Origin: a virus
IMG/VR virus record: IMGVR_UViG_3300014880_000043
Location: 1-25,583 of that record
DNA: 25,583 bases
Strand: one strand, 5' to 3'
The notes below the pieces were generated by a model that searched no databases, was not told where the DNA came from, and worked only from the letters and a program-made list of their open reading frames with translations. Positions within the stretch are counted from its first letter, which is position 1. Each line of letters starts with the position of its first letter. Shown one piece after another: positions 7,981-23,160 of this stretch. The translations under genes were made by a program, and so were the position numbers.

Positions 7981-7985
7981 GAATT

Positions 7986-8069
7986 TGCCAGCTATCGGAA
8001 TTGAACCGATAAGGTATTTCTACCGTCAGATTTTAAGTCTGATGTGTTTGCCTATTTCACCAAGCTGGC
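7986..8069 (-). tRNA. tRNA-Leu (anticodon UAA)
   Basis: Read on the minus strand, GCCAGCT (8069-8063) pairs with AGCTGGC to make a perfect 7-bp acceptor stem, followed by discriminator A (7986). The anticodon stem is TCAGA/TCTGA with loop CTTAAAA, giving anticodon TAA. A class II variable arm and a T-arm with loop GGTTCAATTCC complete the cloverleaf. CCA is not encoded. It decodes UUA, a codon common in these AT-rich genes. It lies downstream of the last leftward gene, where the two gene arms converge. Confidence 0.93.
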
Positions 8070-8076
8070 ATATTAA

Positions 8077-10624: not shown

Positions 10625-11268
10625 TTCTCCTTTTCTTTTTCATATTTATCCCAATCACATTTATTACATCTAAATACCTGGGGTGGACCCACAAATCCGG
10701 TCACGAATTCTTCACCACAAATACAACATTTCAATAATTTCTTTTCTTTCTCTTTCTTTTGTCCTCCTTTTTGTCCTCCTACAAAATCACTGTATGTTGG
10801 TTTAGGTTTATATTTATTATAGTATTTTGGATTACTATGAAATTCATGTTCAGAAACTCTAGATTTATCTGGTAAAATATATTCTCTAGTAACAGCATCA
10901 AATGTTACATAGATTGATTCTTTTGGTTCAGTTTTATCGTAATAATTCTGTTGTGCTTGTGATGGTCTATAGTATTGTTGTTGTTTAGACCGTTCTTCAG
11001 CTTCTCTAGCCCAATATTGTCTTTCCTGGTCATATGAGGACCATTGTGCATTCCTCATATTCTTTAATATTTCATTCAGCCAATCATTACTTCCTGGTTG
11101 GGGTGTTGGAATATGAGTTGCTTTATTAGAGGGTAAATTCGATTGAGTAAATTTATAATCGGCTTCCGCAATCATCTTACACACTTTTCGAGCGGCAAGA
11201 TTTGATTCATTCTCGTTCGGATTGTTATTAGCTAGTTTGATTAGCTTTATGAGTAGGTCAAGATTCAT
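10618..11268 (-). CDS. DUF2786-like N-terminus with C-terminal zinc ribbon, 216 aa
   Basis: Residues 4-33 (DLLIKLIKLANNNPNENESNLAARKVCKMI) fit the DUF2786 helical motif, in which K-L-x-x-LA, N-E-x-E and A-A-x-K are conserved. The middle is Gln/Tyr-rich and probably disordered. A lysine-rich stretch leads to a zinc ribbon, CCICGEEF with CNKCDW, near the C-terminus. It overlaps the end of the DNA polymerase gene by 11 bases, and GAAAG precedes its ATG. The coupling suggests a replication accessory role; the biochemical role of DUF2786 is not known. Confidence 0.6.
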   Translation of the reverse strand: MNLDLLIKLIKLANNNPNENESNLAARKVCKMIAEADYKFTQSNLPSNKATHIPTPQPGSNDWLNEILKNMRNAQWSSYDQERQYWAREAEERSKQQQYYRPSQAQQNYYDKTEPKESIYVTFDAVTREYILPDKSRVSEHEFHSNPKYYNKYKPKPTYSDFVGGQKGGQKKEKEKKLLKCCICGEEFVTGFVGPPQVFRCNKCDWDKYEKEKEKW

Positions 11269-13846
11269 TCATCTTTCTTTCTTCAGCATTATAGATGATA
11301 TTTGTTAATGGACTATCGATAGGTAAATCAACTACAATAAATTGTTCTGTAATTGATTTAGGCGGTAGGTTTAAAGGAACAATAGGAGGACGAATGATAG
11401 GTATGTCTCTGAACTTCGATAGTTCACGATAATTAGGTCCAGTTTCTATTTCGCATGGAATGACTAATTCATGACGCGGTAGTGAACATCTGGAAAAGTT
11501 GATAGGACGTTCCATCTCCTCTTTAATGATAATACTGTATTCTAAGAGTTTGTCCTTTTTGATGCAGAATAACAACGCATCATGAGATTCCATAACAATC
11601 TTAATACCAGGTATTTTCTCTCTAATTCTAATAGCTGCTGCTTTCGTGTTATCTGATACCGCTCGTTGAGGAATATAACTGAATCCCTGTCGAAAAAGTT
11701 CATCTCCCCATCGCTCATAGAATGTCCTCTTTCCACCAAATAGAGCATTTACTCCATATGGCACAGGTGCAATAAGCTGACGTGTTTTCTTTAGTGCTTC
11801 GATTACACCAGCCTGAAATATATGTTGTATCTTGGGCTGTTTTGAATGGAATATAATTAATGCTCGTTCCGCAATTGCTTCGCTAATTGCAATAGGTATC
11901 TTATATTTGCGCGCCTGTGTATTGAGTTCAATTGACGCTCTACGTTTTCCCGCTCCAAGGTGTCCTGCGTGCCTAAGAGTTTTACCAGCAAAACGTATTG
12001 GAGACTCATAACCAAGAGTTTTTTTAGAGTAATCAGATTCAGTGCCACCGAAAAACCAAGAAGCAGTAAGAGCATGATAATCATGTTCATCGATATCCTT
12101 TAATGCTTGTTCGTCATTCGCTAACAAAAATACTACTCTAGCCTCAGCTTGTGCACTATCAGCCTGAACAAAGATTTCATCAGGCTCATCAGGTATGTAT
12201 ATTTCACGTATGTCGGCACCAATGTCACCATGTTTAGTCATGGTCTGGAATGCGGTACCTAATACTTTGTCTTTTTTCTTACCATTCTCATCTATTACTT
12301 CTACTTTTGGTCTGATTGGGGGGTCCTGTTGCCCTGTAGAAGTTCTTCCAGTTTCCAAACAAAGGAAATAAGTAGTGCGCATCCTACCATCAAAATCTGG
12401 TAAAGCCATGAGGTAGGTTGATATCGACTTCCTGACACGTCTGCCCTCCAATATAAGTTCTAACACTCTACGATGTTCTGGATTCTTGACCGCGGTAGGA
12501 CTATTTAATAGTGCGGTGATATCTTCCTCGCCCGTTGTTGGCTTGGGAGGTAATTTGAAATTCTCGAATAGAAGGATATAAATCTGCTTAGGTGAATTGA
12601 CATTGATTTCAGTTCCAGTTAATTGAAATAATTCATAGCGTATTTTCTCATCCCATTCAACATATTTACGAATCAGTTTATCTCTAGTTTCAGGGTCCAT
12701 CTTGAATCCCTGATTTTCTATTGACCAATATACATCAGGCAACTTCATGAGAAAGTTTTCAAAGAATGGTCTTTGTTCTAACTCATCTAAGTCCTTATCC
12801 ATATTGGTGTTAATCTCAATGGTAACGCAGCTATCCCTTGCACACCCAAGTAACAAATCGGACATAGACCCTTCGTACATGCCCTCATCTTTATAGAAAG
12901 GTTCCTCTGTATATATACTCTGGTTAAAAGAGAGTCTTTTAGGTAGTTCTGGATTAATCGCGTGTGCCTTAAGCATAATATCCGAAAGAAGTTTTCGGAT
13001 AATAAATCCCAATCTTTTAATTTTATCCCTGTCGTAATTGAAGTTCTGTCCAATGATGTCTTTGTCATATAGCAACTTCGCTAGGATAATCCAAATTTGA
13101 ACTAGGTCAGCATCCGGTATAGTAGAGATTCCATCCTTATTCCATAGGGGAACCGTCATACCATGTTTAGGCGTAAATGCTAATCCCATACAGACGGGTA
13201 AACAATGACCTCGCGCTTCAATATCTACCGCCATCTGTGAATAATCTTTATATCGGTCGATGAACTGTTGTAACTCGAAGGAATTATGGCAAATCTGAAG
13301 TGTGCGTTGCGGTAGGACTAGTTCAGGAAATTGAGACTGATATATAGCGCGTTTAATATCAAATAGAATTAATTGTTTGTTCCAATATCCTTTGATTTCG
13401 CTTCCTTTATTGAATGATAAATCTCGCGGATGATATGTAGGCACAAACTTGACACCCATGCCGTGCATAATACTTCCACGGTAATTTTCAATGGAGGTTT
13501 TACCAGATAAAGCCCATAAACTAGAGCTAGAAAGAGCGATGATACAATTTGGTTTAATAGAATTGATTTCATTCTGTAACTCATAGAGTTGTTGTTCGAT
13601 ATCAACTCCTGACATCTTAGCACGAACTGCAAAAGGAATCTTTTTTGGTCCATCATTAGGCTGTATATGAAATTTTGATACAGCCGATAACCAACAATTA
13701 GCTCGATTGATTTTAGCGTCTTTTAGTATTCCTTCTAGTTCACTTTCTCTAGTGAATAGTTTTTCACTATCATAGTATGATGGACAATCAGTGAGAATCA
13801 TTAGTTTCGCGCCGATTGGTCCTTGGCCTGAGATATATTTAGTCAA
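11258..13846 (-). CDS. polA: Family A DNA polymerase with N-terminal UDG-like domain, 862 aa
   Basis: Residues 1-165 resemble the family-4 uracil-DNA-glycosylase fold found in SPO1-type polymerases (LMILTDCPS, CIIALSSSSLWALSG, FVPTYHPRDL). A 3'-5' exonuclease follows with D208/E210 (VDIEA), N268-x3-D272 and D338. The polymerase domain has RTSTG (501), motif A QADSAQAEAR with D563, motif B R618-x3-K622 and motif C SHDALLF with H755/D756. The residue equal to E. coli Pol I F762 is His626, Y766 is Leu630, and motif C has Ala after HD instead of Glu. The metal-binding aspartates remain, so it is probably active. This is the replicative polymerase. Confidence 0.93.
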   Translation of the reverse strand: MTKYISGQGPIGAKLMILTDCPSYYDSEKLFTRESELEGILKDAKINRANCWLSAVSKFHIQPNDGPKKIPFAVRAKMSGVDIEQQLYELQNEINSIKPNCIIALSSSSLWALSGKTSIENYRGSIMHGMGVKFVPTYHPRDLSFNKGSEIKGYWNKQLILFDIKRAIYQSQFPELVLPQRTLQICHNSFELQQFIDRYKDYSQMAVDIEARGHCLPVCMGLAFTPKHGMTVPLWNKDGISTIPDADLVQIWIILAKLLYDKDIIGQNFNYDRDKIKRLGFIIRKLLSDIMLKAHAINPELPKRLSFNQSIYTEEPFYKDEGMYEGSMSDLLLGCARDSCVTIEINTNMDKDLDELEQRPFFENFLMKLPDVYWSIENQGFKMDPETRDKLIRKYVEWDEKIRYELFQLTGTEINVNSPKQIYILLFENFKLPPKPTTGEEDITALLNSPTAVKNPEHRRVLELILEGRRVRKSISTYLMALPDFDGRMRTTYFLCLETGRTSTGQQDPPIRPKVEVIDENGKKKDKVLGTAFQTMTKHGDIGADIREIYIPDEPDEIFVQADSAQAEARVVFLLANDEQALKDIDEHDYHALTASWFFGGTESDYSKKTLGYESPIRFAGKTLRHAGHLGAGKRRASIELNTQARKYKIPIAISEAIAERALIIFHSKQPKIQHIFQAGVIEALKKTRQLIAPVPYGVNALFGGKRTFYERWGDELFRQGFSYIPQRAVSDNTKAAAIRIREKIPGIKIVMESHDALLFCIKKDKLLEYSIIIKEEMERPINFSRCSLPRHELVIPCEIETGPNYRELSKFRDIPIIRPPIVPLNLPPKSITEQFIVVDLPIDSPLTNIIYNAEERKMNES

Positions 13847-14941: not shown

Positions 14942-15181
14942 TTAGTTGAATCCATTAATGAAGTTGACAAATTCTTGTCTTGACATATTTGGTTTAGTTA
15001 TCATTGTCATCATGCACAATGACATTAATGTGTCGCTACTAGTTTCAGGATGTTTCCTGATATCAGATGCCATTGATGTAAGGCCATTCTTTAATGCTGA
15101 TTTGGGTTCAGTTTTGGCATAGTAATCATATTCCTGAATAGCTCTATCTTTACACCATTTGATGTGTTCAGCTCTAGTCAT
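14942..15181 (-). CDS. Conserved small phage protein, 79 aa
   Basis: The opening TRAEHIKWCKDRAIQEYDYY, then LTSMASDIRKHPETSS and a final FINGFN, match a small protein family I recall from many tailed phages, where E-H-x-x-WCK-x-RA and S-D-x-x-KH-x-ET are conserved. Its function is not known. ATG 15181 lies within the end of the cold-shock-domain gene (8-nt overlap), so the two are coupled. Confidence 0.6.
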   Translation of the reverse strand: MTRAEHIKWCKDRAIQEYDYYAKTEPKSALKNGLTSMASDIRKHPETSSDTLMSLCMMTMITKPNMSRQEFVNFINGFN

Positions 15182-15509
15182 GCGATTTTCCTTTTTTGTT
15201 TTGCATATTCATTTCTACAAGTTCGACTACTTCTATTTTGATAGCCCGAAATCCTTTGTCCGGTATCTCAACAGGAGTGAAAGAAACTTTCATTCCAATC
15301 TTTAACATTGTGAAGTTTAATGTGTTTTGCTTGAGACTAGTCCAGTGGAAAAATATGCGGGTGAACTTGATATCCTTGGAGGAAATGAACCCCCATCCGT
15401 CCTCAGATAGTTTGATGATTTTACCAATAACTCGTGTCTCAGTTTTCTCTGCAATTTCTTCAATTTCTTTCTTGTCATCTTCATTCAGTCTGTCGGAAAT
15501 ACTTGTCAT
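15174..15509 (-). CDS. Cold-shock-domain nucleic-acid-binding protein, 111 aa
   Basis: Residues 26-96 fit the cold-shock OB fold: V-I-G-K-I-I-K, RNP1-like DGWGFISS (37-44), RNP2-like RIFFHWTSL (51-59), then LKIGMKVSFT and GFRAIKIEVVE. Such proteins bind single-stranded RNA or DNA and melt RNA structure. ATG 15509 is chosen over in-frame ATG 15557 because AAGGAG lies about six bases upstream, and the longer form would start inside a stable hairpin. The N-terminal 25 residues are acidic. The preceding ~200 bases hold an unusual nested set of complementary arms, so expression may be controlled at the RNA level. Confidence 0.8.
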   Translation of the reverse strand: MTSISDRLNEDDKKEIEEIAEKTETRVIGKIIKLSEDGWGFISSKDIKFTRIFFHWTSLKQNTLNFTMLKIGMKVSFTPVEIPDKGFRAIKIEVVELVEMNMQNKKGKSHD

Positions 15510-15535
15510 CAGATGCTCCTTTATTGTTAAAATGC

Positions 15536-15702
15536 GGGGGACTAACTGTGAATCCATTTGTGATGGTCATTAGCTAGTCCCCCTGTTACCATTAACCTTT
15601 AAGGCCGATGTTAGGCACATACTCTAATTTTCATTGGGACTCGCATCAATGATATAATCTTCCTAAGAAGATTGCGAGTAAATCTATTTTTCAGGGTTAA
15701 TG
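15536..15702 (-). promoter_or_regulatory. Structured leader RNA candidate upstream of the cold-shock-domain gene
   Basis: In a gap of about 200 bases, four sets of complementary arms nest cleanly. P1 is 15695-15702 with 15590-15597 (8 bp). P2 is 15673-15679 with 15639-15645 (7 bp). P3 is 15667-15673 with 15656-15662 (7 bp, 4-nt loop). P4 is 15572-15583 with 15536-15547 (12 bp with one G-U and five G-C pairs at its base). P1 encloses P2 and P3; P4 follows and ends about 15 bases before the ribosome binding site. This could be a 5' regulator (thermosensor-like, as in cspA leaders), a riboswitch-like element, or a processing site plus terminator. It matches no riboswitch consensus that I know. 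Confidence 0.55.
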
Positions 15703-15714
15703 ATAAGTTTCAGT

Positions 15715-15882
15715 TTAAATCAGTTCTTCAATCTCTGAGTCTGGCTCCTTATCACCATCCTCATCGATATCAGAATCTTCTTCTTTTGTATCCATGTCAG
15801 TTGTGATTTCCTCAACGGTTTCCACGTCTGGCATTTCCTTCGGTTCAGTTCTAACAGCGTCGTCGAAATTTCCAGTATTCAT
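15715..15882 (-). CDS. Highly acidic small protein, 55 aa
   Basis: ATG 15882 follows AAGGAA within the end of the Acb2-like gene, and the frame runs 55 codons to TAA. Nearly half of the residues are Asp or Glu (VETVEEITTDMDTKEEDSDI, then DEDGDKEPDSEIEEL). It is probably disordered. Very acidic phage peptides sometimes mimic DNA or bind basic host proteins, but no homology supports that here. It is the last gene before the structured gap. Confidence 0.6.
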   Translation of the reverse strand: MNTGNFDDAVRTEPKEMPDVETVEEITTDMDTKEEDSDIDEDGDKEPDSEIEELI

Positions 15883-15883
15883 T

Positions 15884-16126
15884 CTATTCCTTTTCGTTAC
15901 GGGCTATTGCCGCATTTGCCATCATTAACAGTTGGTCAAGTAGTGTTAGTGCTACGGATTGTTCTCTACTTACAGGAGTGTTCTGAACAATCGCCATAGC
16001 TAATCGTTTACCCTCATTTCGTAGAAATACATATCTCTCCTGTTGGTCGCCCATAGGAGCATGATACTGATAATCATTATCTAATCTCTGCTGAATAGTA
16101 TCAGTGATAGGATATTTGTTTATCAT
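15884..16126 (-). CDS. acb2-like: Acb2/Tad1-type hairpin-domain protein, candidate anti-CBASS sponge, 80 aa
   Basis: The sequence follows the pattern of small phage proteins now grouped with the Acb2/Tad1 hairpin domain: QQRLDNDYQYHAPMGDQQERY (residues 12-32), a helix KRLAMAIVQNTP, then SREQSVALTLLDQLLMMANAAIARNE (53-78). Characterised Acb2 proteins form hexamers of helical hairpins that sequester cyclic di- and trinucleotides and so block CBASS immunity. The length of 80 residues fits. Binding residues cannot be confirmed by eye, and relatives may bind other nucleotides or none. It sits between the ssDNA-binding protein gene and the acidic protein gene. The domain call is moderately strong; the anti-CBASS role is inferred. 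Confidence 0.68.
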   Translation of the reverse strand: MINKYPITDTIQQRLDNDYQYHAPMGDQQERYVFLRNEGKRLAMAIVQNTPVSREQSVALTLLDQLLMMANAAIARNEKE

Positions 16127-16192: not shown

Positions 16193-16606
16193 TTATACCG
16201 TCGCCGCTTCCGTGCGGACAGGACGATATTTATGGTTAACCCTGTTAACGATTCGACCCTGCCATTCGCCGTTTTCAACGAAAACATCGAGTTCTCGTCC
16301 TTCGGCAGACTTCAGGTCAAACCTGGTCCCCGCTTTAACTTCCACACCAAAGGCCGCGAGGAATCCAACACAGAATCCGATGGCTTTCGAGTTAAAGTTC
16401 CAATCCAACGGAACACCAGCAAATTCCGTATCACCATTATCAGCATTACGAATAATGGTTCCTTCAACTGGATAATTAGTTGATGGACCTTTTTCTGATT
16501 GTTTTGCGGGAGCCTCTCCCACAGATTCAATCTTGACAGTGTACCAAGAAGGTGTAATAACCTTCCCTCTCATGATATCGCGATCGCCAAACTGGATAAC
16601 GGGCAT
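16193..16606 (-). CDS. DUF669-like phage ssDNA-binding protein, 137 aa
   Basis: The sequence has the layout of phage DUF669-like proteins: VITPSWYTVKIESVGEAPA, STNYPVEGTIIRNADNGDTE, then DWNFNSKAIGFCVGFLAAFG and a final strand set GRELDVFVENGEWQGRIVNRV with HKYRPVR. Relatives sit in replication-recombination clusters and are thought to be OB-fold single-strand binders. Gene order (RecA-like ATPase, then this gene) supports that. A remnant homing endonuclease lies directly upstream. There is no classic acidic SSB tail. The gene is noticeably more GC-rich than its neighbours. Confidence 0.6.
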   Translation of the reverse strand: MPVIQFGDRDIMRGKVITPSWYTVKIESVGEAPAKQSEKGPSTNYPVEGTIIRNADNGDTEFAGVPLDWNFNSKAIGFCVGFLAAFGVEVKAGTRFDLKSAEGRELDVFVENGEWQGRIVNRVNHKYRPVRTEAATV

Positions 16607-20869: not shown

Positions 20870-21022
20870 TTATTCCTTCACCCTGGTAAGACCTTTATGC
20901 TTAGCCAGACTCTTAACAATGATGTGTAGTGCGTCACCCTTACTGTTACCAGTAATTTTCGCTAGTTGAGTTGCTGCACGTAGAAGAACTTTCGCTTGTT
21001 GAGTATCGATACTTTTAGTCAT
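20870..21022 (-). CDS. Hypothetical basic helical protein, 50 aa
   Basis: ATG 21022 shares TAATG with the stop of the helicase gene, and GGAG in that gene's last codons precedes it. The 50-residue product (MTKSIDTQQAKVLLRAATQL ... HIIVKSLAKHKGLTRVKE) is basic and helical. No motif is recognised. The tight coupling suggests a partner of the SNF2-type enzyme. Confidence 0.55.
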   Translation of the reverse strand: MTKSIDTQQAKVLLRAATQLAKITGNSKGDALHIIVKSLAKHKGLTRVKE

Positions 21023-23160
21023 TATGCTCTCCTGATTAGTGTTGCGGCCGCGGTTACATTAGTTGGTTTAGCAGGTGAACCATGCTTCGCTTTATGCTTA
21101 GCGATGATAAGTTTCGCCATCTCCTTACCGATATCACCTTCATTCCATTTGGGCTGTTCACCCTTGTTCATAACAGCATGAAAGTGACGACGTTTACGTT
21201 CCACGATTTCGTCAAGATGTCCGTCAATAGTTCCTTCACCTTCGGTGAATGTAATATTGATTTGTTTGGAAAGTTGACCAATACGACGGAATCTACCAGG
21301 TGCCGCTTGGTCCTCATTCTGTGGATTCCATTGTCTCTCATGCATTACACTATCTGAACAAGTTTGAAGGTCAATACCTTCACCACTCGCCAAAGTAGAT
21401 GCAACCATGATAGCGCGAGGAAGTTTATTGAATAACTCCTGTGCTTCAAATCTCTCAGCGTCTGACATCTCGGCGATGATTTTCAGAACAGGAATCTTTT
21501 CGATAAACTCCTTATGATTCTCATCCTGATATCGTTCGCACAATCCATCGAACAGAATGCGGCCGACATCTTTGTGATGAAAGAAGATAACTAATTTCTT
21601 ATCAGTATCTTCAATGAATTCTTCCGCGAATGACATCGTAGCAGGAATCTTAGCGAGGCCCGTGATGTGACGCATACGGGACATCTTAGCTAAGATTTCG
21701 ATACCATTCAGACTATCCTCAGTTCCATCGATAACGAACTGATTATACCACGCTACAAATTCTGATGTAGCGTCGTCATATGTAGTCTGTGAGAACTCGT
21801 CTAATTGAATAGCGAGTTTAGTGCGGTTGATATCAGGAAATTCATCCATGACTTCATTGTATTCACGGCGAATAACGATATCCTGAACATATTCCCTGAA
21901 CTTCTTAGGATTGCGGATGCCACCCTGTTTCTTCTTGTTACCTTCCCAATAGAAATCTACCCACGTATCAAGATAATGCTGATGTGAGTAGAACTTAGTG
22001 GGTGATAGCATGTTGAGGACAGGAAAGAATTCCTCGCCTCTGTTTTTCCAAGGAGTTCCTGATAATGGAAGGACTTTGATGTTGGTATCTTTTACGAGCT
22101 TCCGCACCTCTTGAGTGCGGCTACTATCAGGATTCTTAATCTGCTGGCATTCGTCGAGAACTACAGTCTTAAGTCCGAGCTTCGCTAATTTCTCTGTGGG
22201 AAATCTCTTGAGTAAATCATAACTAATGATGTATGACTTGAGACCAGGAAGAATAGCATCTTTGGAAGTATTGATTACCTGCGCGAGATAATCAGGACCA
22301 TGCCAACGAACTATCTGTTTAAACCAGTTAAATTTGATAGCAGATTTGACGACGTAAAGGACAGGATATCGTTCAGGATGATAGCGGAGATATGCGAGAA
22401 TCTGAACAGTCTTACCAAGGCCCATATCATCGAATAAACCGGCGCCCTTCTGTATGGCACAAGCTGCTTCAATGAATCTAGCTCCAGTAACTTGAAATTC
22501 AAATAGTTTGAATTCTCCACATCCATCACATTTATTCTTAGTGAATACATGTTTACATGACTTGACTTCAGGTTTCCACCAATTACTTACTAGTTCCTGG
22601 AATGGTGTTCCCTTAGGAATGACTTTCTTGATGATGTGGAAACATTCAAGAGTAATCATTTTTACTTGATTACCTTGTTTATCCACTGTCATGTAAGAAA
22701 ATTTCTCTTTCGCTACTTTACCACAATCAGGGCATTTATCCTGTAATCGTGTGACCTTATGTGTAACATTGCGGATGACCTGGACGACTTCTTTTTCTTC
22801 GGTGATAACTTCTACTGTATGTCCTGAGCGTATTGCATCGATGATATGTGGTGGCAAACTCAGATGAGAACATGGTTGAGTATTATCACAACCGATTTCA
22901 CGCGCTTTAGCTTCCCATACACTATCATGACCGTGACCAGGAGTTAAGGCATGAGCTACTTCATGCTTAATCGTGCATACAACTTCCTTGTATGGATGGA
23001 TATCGATGTGGTGTGCATTTAACATGATGACCTTATCACCATGCATACATAATCCGAGGAATGGTAAATCAGGGTCTGAAGAAATACGGATAGACCATTT
23101 ATTCAATCCGTGTTTATTCAATTCCTCACGTAGAAATGTTGATGCTGTATTTCTATCCAT
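21022..23160 (-). CDS. SprT-like zinc protease fused to SNF2-family helicase, 712 aa
   Basis: The N-terminal domain (1-100) has H66-E-V-A-H70 with HGHDSVWEAKAREIGC after it, the SprT/SPRTN-type zinc metalloprotease signature. Zinc-ribbon cysteines follow (CPDCG 143-147, C202 with H204, CDGCG 211-215). The SNF2 engine comes next: Walker A DDMGLGKT (244-251), DECQ (336-339), LSGTPWKN (366-373), and the motif VI region APGRFRRIGQ near residue 640. SPRTN proteases cut proteins crosslinked to DNA, and SNF2 enzymes move along dsDNA using ATP. The fusion could clear bound proteins from phage DNA. Both active sites look complete. AGGAA lies eight bases before ATG 23160. Confidence 0.88.
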   Translation of the reverse strand: MDRNTASTFLREELNKHGLNKWSIRISSDPDLPFLGLCMHGDKVIMLNAHHIDIHPYKEVVCTIKHEVAHALTPGHGHDSVWEAKAREIGCDNTQPCSHLSLPPHIIDAIRSGHTVEVITEEKEVVQVIRNVTHKVTRLQDKCPDCGKVAKEKFSYMTVDKQGNQVKMITLECFHIIKKVIPKGTPFQELVSNWWKPEVKSCKHVFTKNKCDGCGEFKLFEFQVTGARFIEAACAIQKGAGLFDDMGLGKTVQILAYLRYHPERYPVLYVVKSAIKFNWFKQIVRWHGPDYLAQVINTSKDAILPGLKSYIISYDLLKRFPTEKLAKLGLKTVVLDECQQIKNPDSSRTQEVRKLVKDTNIKVLPLSGTPWKNRGEEFFPVLNMLSPTKFYSHQHYLDTWVDFYWEGNKKKQGGIRNPKKFREYVQDIVIRREYNEVMDEFPDINRTKLAIQLDEFSQTTYDDATSEFVAWYNQFVIDGTEDSLNGIEILAKMSRMRHITGLAKIPATMSFAEEFIEDTDKKLVIFFHHKDVGRILFDGLCERYQDENHKEFIEKIPVLKIIAEMSDAERFEAQELFNKLPRAIMVASTLASGEGIDLQTCSDSVMHERQWNPQNEDQAAPGRFRRIGQLSKQINITFTEGEGTIDGHLDEIVERKRRHFHAVMNKGEQPKWNEGDIGKEMAKLIIAKHKAKHGSPAKPTNVTAAATLIRRA

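Follow-up and report, generated by a model that had tools for sequence, protein, structure and literature searches.

A conserved two-helix RNA in the replication operon of an uncultivated phage lineage

Does the gap in front of a phage cold-shock-domain (CSD) gene hold a structured RNA and, if it does, does that RNA belong to the CSD gene? The window considered here is the whole 25,583-nt stretch of the viral record IMGVR_UViG_3300014880_000043, and the gap lies on its minus strand, between the gene for a small acidic protein and the CSD gene. From the letters of this DNA, an earlier note had described four sets of complementary arms, arranged P1(P2(P3)) then P4, and had suggested that, as a phage version of the structured leaders of cold-shock genes such as cspA but with a different fold, they would make a new regulatory RNA. 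All four sets are present on the minus strand where the note had placed them, and base 15673 is indeed claimed by both P2 and P3. P1 reaches into the linker, and is thereby two pairs longer than by a strict reading. The parts of the element and its neighbours are as follows.

15526..15706 (-): whole structured RNA, P1-[P2/P3 domain]-P1'-hinge-P4-P5-P4'-tail (fold z-score, covariance-model match, covariation in relatives)
15695..15706 (-): P1 5' arm, TTATCATTAACC; 12 of 12 positions pair with the 3' arm
15685..15693 (-): conserved single-stranded stretch 3' of P1, TGAAAAATA; GGAAAAATA in relatives (alignment A1)
15639..15679 (-): P2, ACTCGCA at 15673-15679 with TGCGAGT at 15639-15645 (located in the sequence; minimum free energy (MFE) fold)
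15656..15673 (-): P3, nested in P2, AATCTTC at 15667-15673 with GAAGATT at 15656-15662 (located in the sequence; MFE fold)
15604..15616 (-): small GCC...GGC hairpin, then a conserved GGCC-WWAAAGG box preceding the P1 3' arm (alignment A1)
15586..15597 (-): P1 3' arm, GGTTAATGGTAA (near-relative alignment; P1 pair probability 0.96 at 37 °C)
15584..15585 (-): 2-nt hinge between P1 and P4, CA in the window and UA or CA in relatives (alignments of relatives)
15572..15583 (-): P4 5' arm, GGGGGACTAGCT (pairing in 52 sequences and in the hold-out)
15554..15566 (-): P5, apical hairpin CCAT-cacaa-ATGG atop the conserved asymmetric internal loop of P4 (sequence; alignment A2)
15536..15547 (-): P4 3' arm, AGTTAGTCCCCC (pairing in 52 sequences and in the hold-out)
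15526..15535 (-): tail 3' of P4, GCATTTTAAC; GCYTTT in most relatives (tail comparison)
15515..15522 (-): Shine-Dalgarno sequence of the CSD gene, AAAGGAGC (sequence and position)
15174..15509 (-): CSD gene, 111 aa, next downstream, start at 15509 (Pfam CSD PF00313, E 1e-7)
15715..15882 (-): small acidic gene, 55 aa, directly upstream of the RNA (open reading frame; acidic neighbour in 62 of 64 relatives)
16193..16606 (-): conserved 137-aa protein of the replication region, labelled 'ssb'; used as a structure-independent anchor

The minus-strand leader folds with an MFE of -57.3 kcal/mol, against -40.6 ± 4.0 kcal/mol for shuffled sequences (z = -4.23), and none of 200 shuffles did as well, which bears out the proposal of a structured RNA. 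Folding is favourable on the plus strand as well (z = -4.82), as expected of hairpins, which fold on either strand; folding energy, therefore, does not tell the strand. In a longer sequence context at 37 °C, the ensemble is dominated by P1 and P4, with pair probabilities of 0.96 and 0.99, respectively. The middle domain of the window, folded alone, is barely better than shuffles (z = -0.7).

Comparison of the leader DNA with the relatives and with GenBank phages gave nothing useful, and the relatives were collected by protein similarity rather than through the leader. These protein searches yielded about 120 loci of one phage lineage, several of them on contigs of 44-49 kb; in nearly all, a family-A DNA polymerase is encoded close to the CSD gene. 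In the window, this polymerase (11258..13846, minus strand) is fused to an N-terminal domain of the uracil-DNA-glycosylase superfamily (PF00476 and PF03167). A tblastn search with the CSD and ssb-like proteins found no match among cultured phages, none of the loci coming from one, and a search for hosts by the polymerase across bacterial genome contigs returned a single remote match, in Chryseobacterium. The 'ssb' label of the 137-aa protein is a guess; Pfam and PHROG searches with it gave no match. The acidic protein encoded just before the RNA is 45-85 aa long, very acidic and fast-changing in sequence in 62 of the 64 loci, and is perhaps the detached acidic tail of the ssb-like protein.

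About 75 distinct copies of the element were found. The hairpin that recurs in the leaders of the relatives starts with (T)GATA or something close to it; 12 bp lead up to an asymmetric internal loop and a short hairpin at the apex, and the returning strand of the 12 bp is followed by GCYTTT. In alignment A2, a sequence-made alignment of 52 copies chosen by having at least 10 of the 12 pairs, P4 is paired in 99.5% of cells and shows two-sided changes at 10 of 12 pairs; its covariation score is 0.899, compared with 0.214 when shuffled and at most 0.27 for slid partners. The GGGG in the stem changes together with its partners, and the contiguous helix measures 12-13 bp in 59 of 64 loci. G-U pairs occur 51 times and A-C pairs not once, hence P4 is selected as an RNA of the gene strand. 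A hold-out set of 32 new loci was picked solely via an unrelated protein anchor, the ssb-like protein, and 27 of these carry the element (E < 0.005) at the same place. Among the 28 matches listed there are 24 distinct stems, which are 99.7% paired and show two-sided changes in 11 of 12 pairs; this alignment was fitted to the covariance model and is biased towards it, but the free stem letters are nonetheless new. Additionally, a DNA-pattern scan of the viral collection, in which only the stem base and its flanks were fixed, matched 13 contigs, 11 of which represent the same lineage at the same spot; the other two, the near-identical L126 and L132, lack any marker gene and look like chance matches. 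Judged from these alignments, the sequence of the element turns over almost completely while its geometry is held. Covariation this strong is rare among phage RNA elements: about 75 distinct copies share a helix of ~12 bp that is >99% paired and almost free in sequence.

The covariance model (R1), which is ready for use, matches the window at 15522-15609 with 48.9 bits, and, in 27 of 30 phage records, a search of the whole record found a single copy. The second match in G024 is due to end redundancy, and that in G021 is at chance level. These observations bear on whether the conserved letters act as DNA, either as a replication origin or as a phage promoter at the conserved TGATAGGG. The position inside a replication operon would suit such an element, as would TGATAGGGG, which precedes the stem and resembles the start of a T7-class promoter. 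However, a single copy speaks against a promoter set, the presence of G-U without A-C indicates selection on one RNA strand, the GGGG covaries with its partners, and the GC skew shows no switch at the element; we consider a DNA-level role highly improbable. Specifically, a T7-like promoter (ATAGGG before the stem) was rejected because of the single copy and the covarying stem, a promoter set or DNA palindrome because of the single copy and the one-strand RNA selection, and an origin marked by GC skew because of the lack of a switch.

The second helix, P1, is likewise maintained. Pairing across its 12 positions reaches 96.6% in 22 near relatives, compared with 65.4% after row shuffling (maximum 76.9% in 1000 shuffles). 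Complementarity was used in delimiting the aligned stretches, which somewhat favours pairing, but this does not account for the ungapped 12-bp register or for the two-sided changes seen at most positions. The 3' arm ends at the hinge preceding P4. In a more distant subgroup, P1, the P2 helix and P4 jointly show two-sided changes in 29 of 33 pairs. Compensatory changes in related phages thus extend to P4, to P1 and, in the distant subgroup, to the P2 helix.

Inside P1, the relatives also hold a hairpin domain at the place of P2(P3), which varies in sequence and length. The near subgroup has GGAAAAAUA, a hairpin and then GCC..GGCCAAAA; in the distant subgroup, CAGAA/AUAAGUUGA forms the internal loop of a helix. 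The P2(P3) hairpin of the window itself is present, but the alignment gives it no support, and so the arms proposed in the earlier note fared unequally, P1 and P4 being upheld and P2(P3) less so. Similarly, the alternative pairings hinted at by the shared base amount to a real competition at 15673 that is confined to this variable domain. Two further ideas about the loops were dropped: P2 modules and P4 loops of particular types are, by eye, not strictly linked, the window itself being mixed; and loop-loop pairing via CACGT/ACGTA fails since the two motifs do not co-occur.

The element keeps its place relative to the gene upstream of it. The acidic open reading frame ends beside P1 in 62 of 64 loci, with a median gap of 7 nt (range -34 to +33 nt from the stop), and the median distance from the end of P4 to the next start is 26 nt. 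What follows varies: the CSD gene comes directly next in the window, as it does in roughly two thirds of the relatives, and at least 15 relatives have other, unrelated genes between the RNA and the CSD gene (for example, one of 264-283 aa in L012, L017 and L018). Moreover, the predicted pairing between the element and the ribosome-binding site that follows is negligible (probability averaging 0.02 over 55 loci), and P1 and P4 of the window sequence are predicted to stay folded throughout 4 to 55 °C; a thermosensor for the CSD gene is, on these predictions, unlikely. The cspA messages are known thermosensors (PMC6386945), and the window element shares with a cspA-type leader its nature as a long structured RNA before a CSD gene, but differs in that it tracks the acidic gene, leaves the ribosome-binding site unpaired and has no predicted temperature response. 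Despite the direct adjacency of the CSD gene in most loci, therefore, we regard a leader dedicated to that gene, be it a thermosensor or an autoregulatory site for the CSD protein, as very unlikely, given the interposed genes, the unpaired ribosome-binding site and the predicted stability of P1 and P4. The earlier proposal consequently stands as regards a real, conserved, structured phage RNA, both outcomes that the note had named as refuting it having turned out the other way, and is not supported as regards a dedication to the CSD gene and a cspA-like sensing of temperature.

The RNA is packed between two operon genes with no room for a flanking promoter, so that the downstream genes would most simply be reached by read-through. 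It lies flush to the acidic stop, with a short gap to the next start and with any of several genes following, which implies read-through unless a promoter lies inside; no promoter of its own was seen for the element. We tentatively favour, at a little under an even chance, a cis-acting intercistronic RNA of the replication operon that sets downstream expression relative to the ssb-like and acidic genes. It would sit in the replication-operon transcript between those genes and the stretch from CSD to DNA polymerase, and its cis action would be exerted either on the polycistronic mRNA itself or on the polymerase transcribing it, setting how strongly the downstream genes are expressed in comparison with those upstream. 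The constant length of the helix, together with its conserved internal loop, suggests that P4 is recognized by a helix-measuring factor, most simply as an RNase III-type processing site or an mRNA-stability site. On this reading, the replication operon would have, throughout this uncultivated phage lineage, a control point at a fixed position.

A natural replacement experiment is provided by L077, L118 and L182, which lack the full element and have a simple stable hairpin in the same gap; these substitutes would fit an operon-internal barrier or a processing site. Taken with the measured P4 helix, they fit a cis element that separates the expression of the ssb-like and acidic genes from that of the genes downstream. 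Judged by eye, L173 and L199 seem to keep the P1-hinge-P4 shape with different letters.

A rival reading is an intrinsic terminator or attenuator, with P4 and the U-rich tail passing only part of the polymerases downstream. The GC-rich stem of ~12 bp followed by GCYTTT, with a mean of 3.8 T in the next 8 nt, has this look; however, the U tract is short, the longest T-run being two or fewer in 8 of 64 loci, and variants end in ACUCUC (L173 and L182) or CUAUUC (L077). Furthermore, efficient termination here would silence the polymerase and primase, and the conserved loops would be left unexplained; we therefore think partial termination quite unlikely. A universal terminator is ruled out by the tail sequences, as the U tract is absent in those 8 of 64.

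Among the cis options, namely processing, stability and action on polymerase, an RNase III-type site would in our analysis be the simplest and a put-like antiterminator the most interesting. An RNase III site has a double-stranded region of roughly two helical turns that includes an internal loop, and the anatomy of P4 (about 12 bp, an internal loop and a further 4-6 bp) is compatible with a candidate site. The RNase III sites of T7, such as R1.1, are intercistronic hairpins with a lower stem of ~one turn and an asymmetric internal loop, features that the element shares; T7, however, has several sites per genome, whereas the element is present once and also has conserved letters at its junction and, in P1, a second conserved helix. 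Stability hairpins of the REP/BIME kind lie between genes whose proteins are needed in different amounts and, like the element, are stable hairpins between genes; unlike them, the element is not a repeated DNA palindrome, and it has a fixed helix length and conserved loops. The conserved letters of loops and junctions, namely the GATA hinge, GGCCAAAA, CAGAA/ATAAGTTGA and AACGTA...CGTATAA, exceed the needs of an RNase III site or a stability hairpin, which counts against the cis processing or stability reading.

A more elaborate proposal, which we rate as possible yet somewhat unlikely, is a new phage RNA device, in which two helices of ~one turn each, joined by a 2-nt hinge and carrying loop modules at their far ends, would dock on the host RNA polymerase or on a phage replication protein and switch the expression of the replication operon. 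The put RNA of phage HK022, of about 70 nt with two stem-loops, acts in cis on the host polymerase, and it resembles the element as a phage cis RNA with two adjacent stem-loops, a tiny hinge, a bulge or internal loop and an early-type operon (PMC9378689). The hinge of one or two nucleotides that typifies put is found here too, P1 and P4 being separated by UA or CA. In a put-like antiterminator, the nascent RNA would bind RNA polymerase such that later pauses and terminators of the long replication operon are ignored. Two adjacent helices with a hinge of 1-2 nt, acting in cis, present singly in a long operon and indifferent to the next gene, would suit this role. The put sites, however, number two per genome (putL and putR), are ~70 nt long and lie just behind early promoters, whereas the element is ~180 nt long, single and mid-operon; R1, at E values up to 10, found no match in HK022, and the two have no sequence in common. 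Our analysis, therefore, leaves a put-like antiterminator unlikely. Were RNA polymerase the target, the element would solve the same problem as put RNA in a second, unrelated way.

The cis-acting reading has also to be weighed against a phage RNA that is cut from the operon transcript and acts in trans as a decoy, sponge or structural RNA, since a processed RNA of this kind would give identical data. The element is compact, stable and single-copy, and holds its shape while its sequence turns over; moreover, the same region of the window holds an Acb2/Tad1-type gene. Against this, no own promoter was seen, the element fits tightly between two genes, and an Acb2-type gene was found in just 13 of the loci; we judge a trans-acting role decidedly unlikely. 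The gene in question (15884..16126, minus strand), two genes upstream of the RNA and present in some relatives only, encodes an 80-aa protein with an Acb2/Tad1 hairpin domain (PF24729, E 2.2e-10), likely an anti-CBASS protein.

At curated thresholds, Rfam release 15 gave no match in the window or in the loci of 13 relatives, and none appeared at E values up to 0.5 in the loci of eight further relatives; a permissive Rfam scan of the window element returned scores at chance level only. A literature search found no description of the element. The element matches no described family in the libraries compared and is best classed as a new family of a known kind, the cis-acting structured phage RNAs.

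Two other features of the window deserve mention. The gene at 21022..23160 (minus strand) encodes, in a single chain, an SNF2-type helicase preceded at the N terminus by a SprT-like metalloprotease domain (PF00176, PF00271 and PF10263), and a tRNA-Leu(taa) gene at 7985..8070 (minus strand) lies where the structural and replication operons converge.
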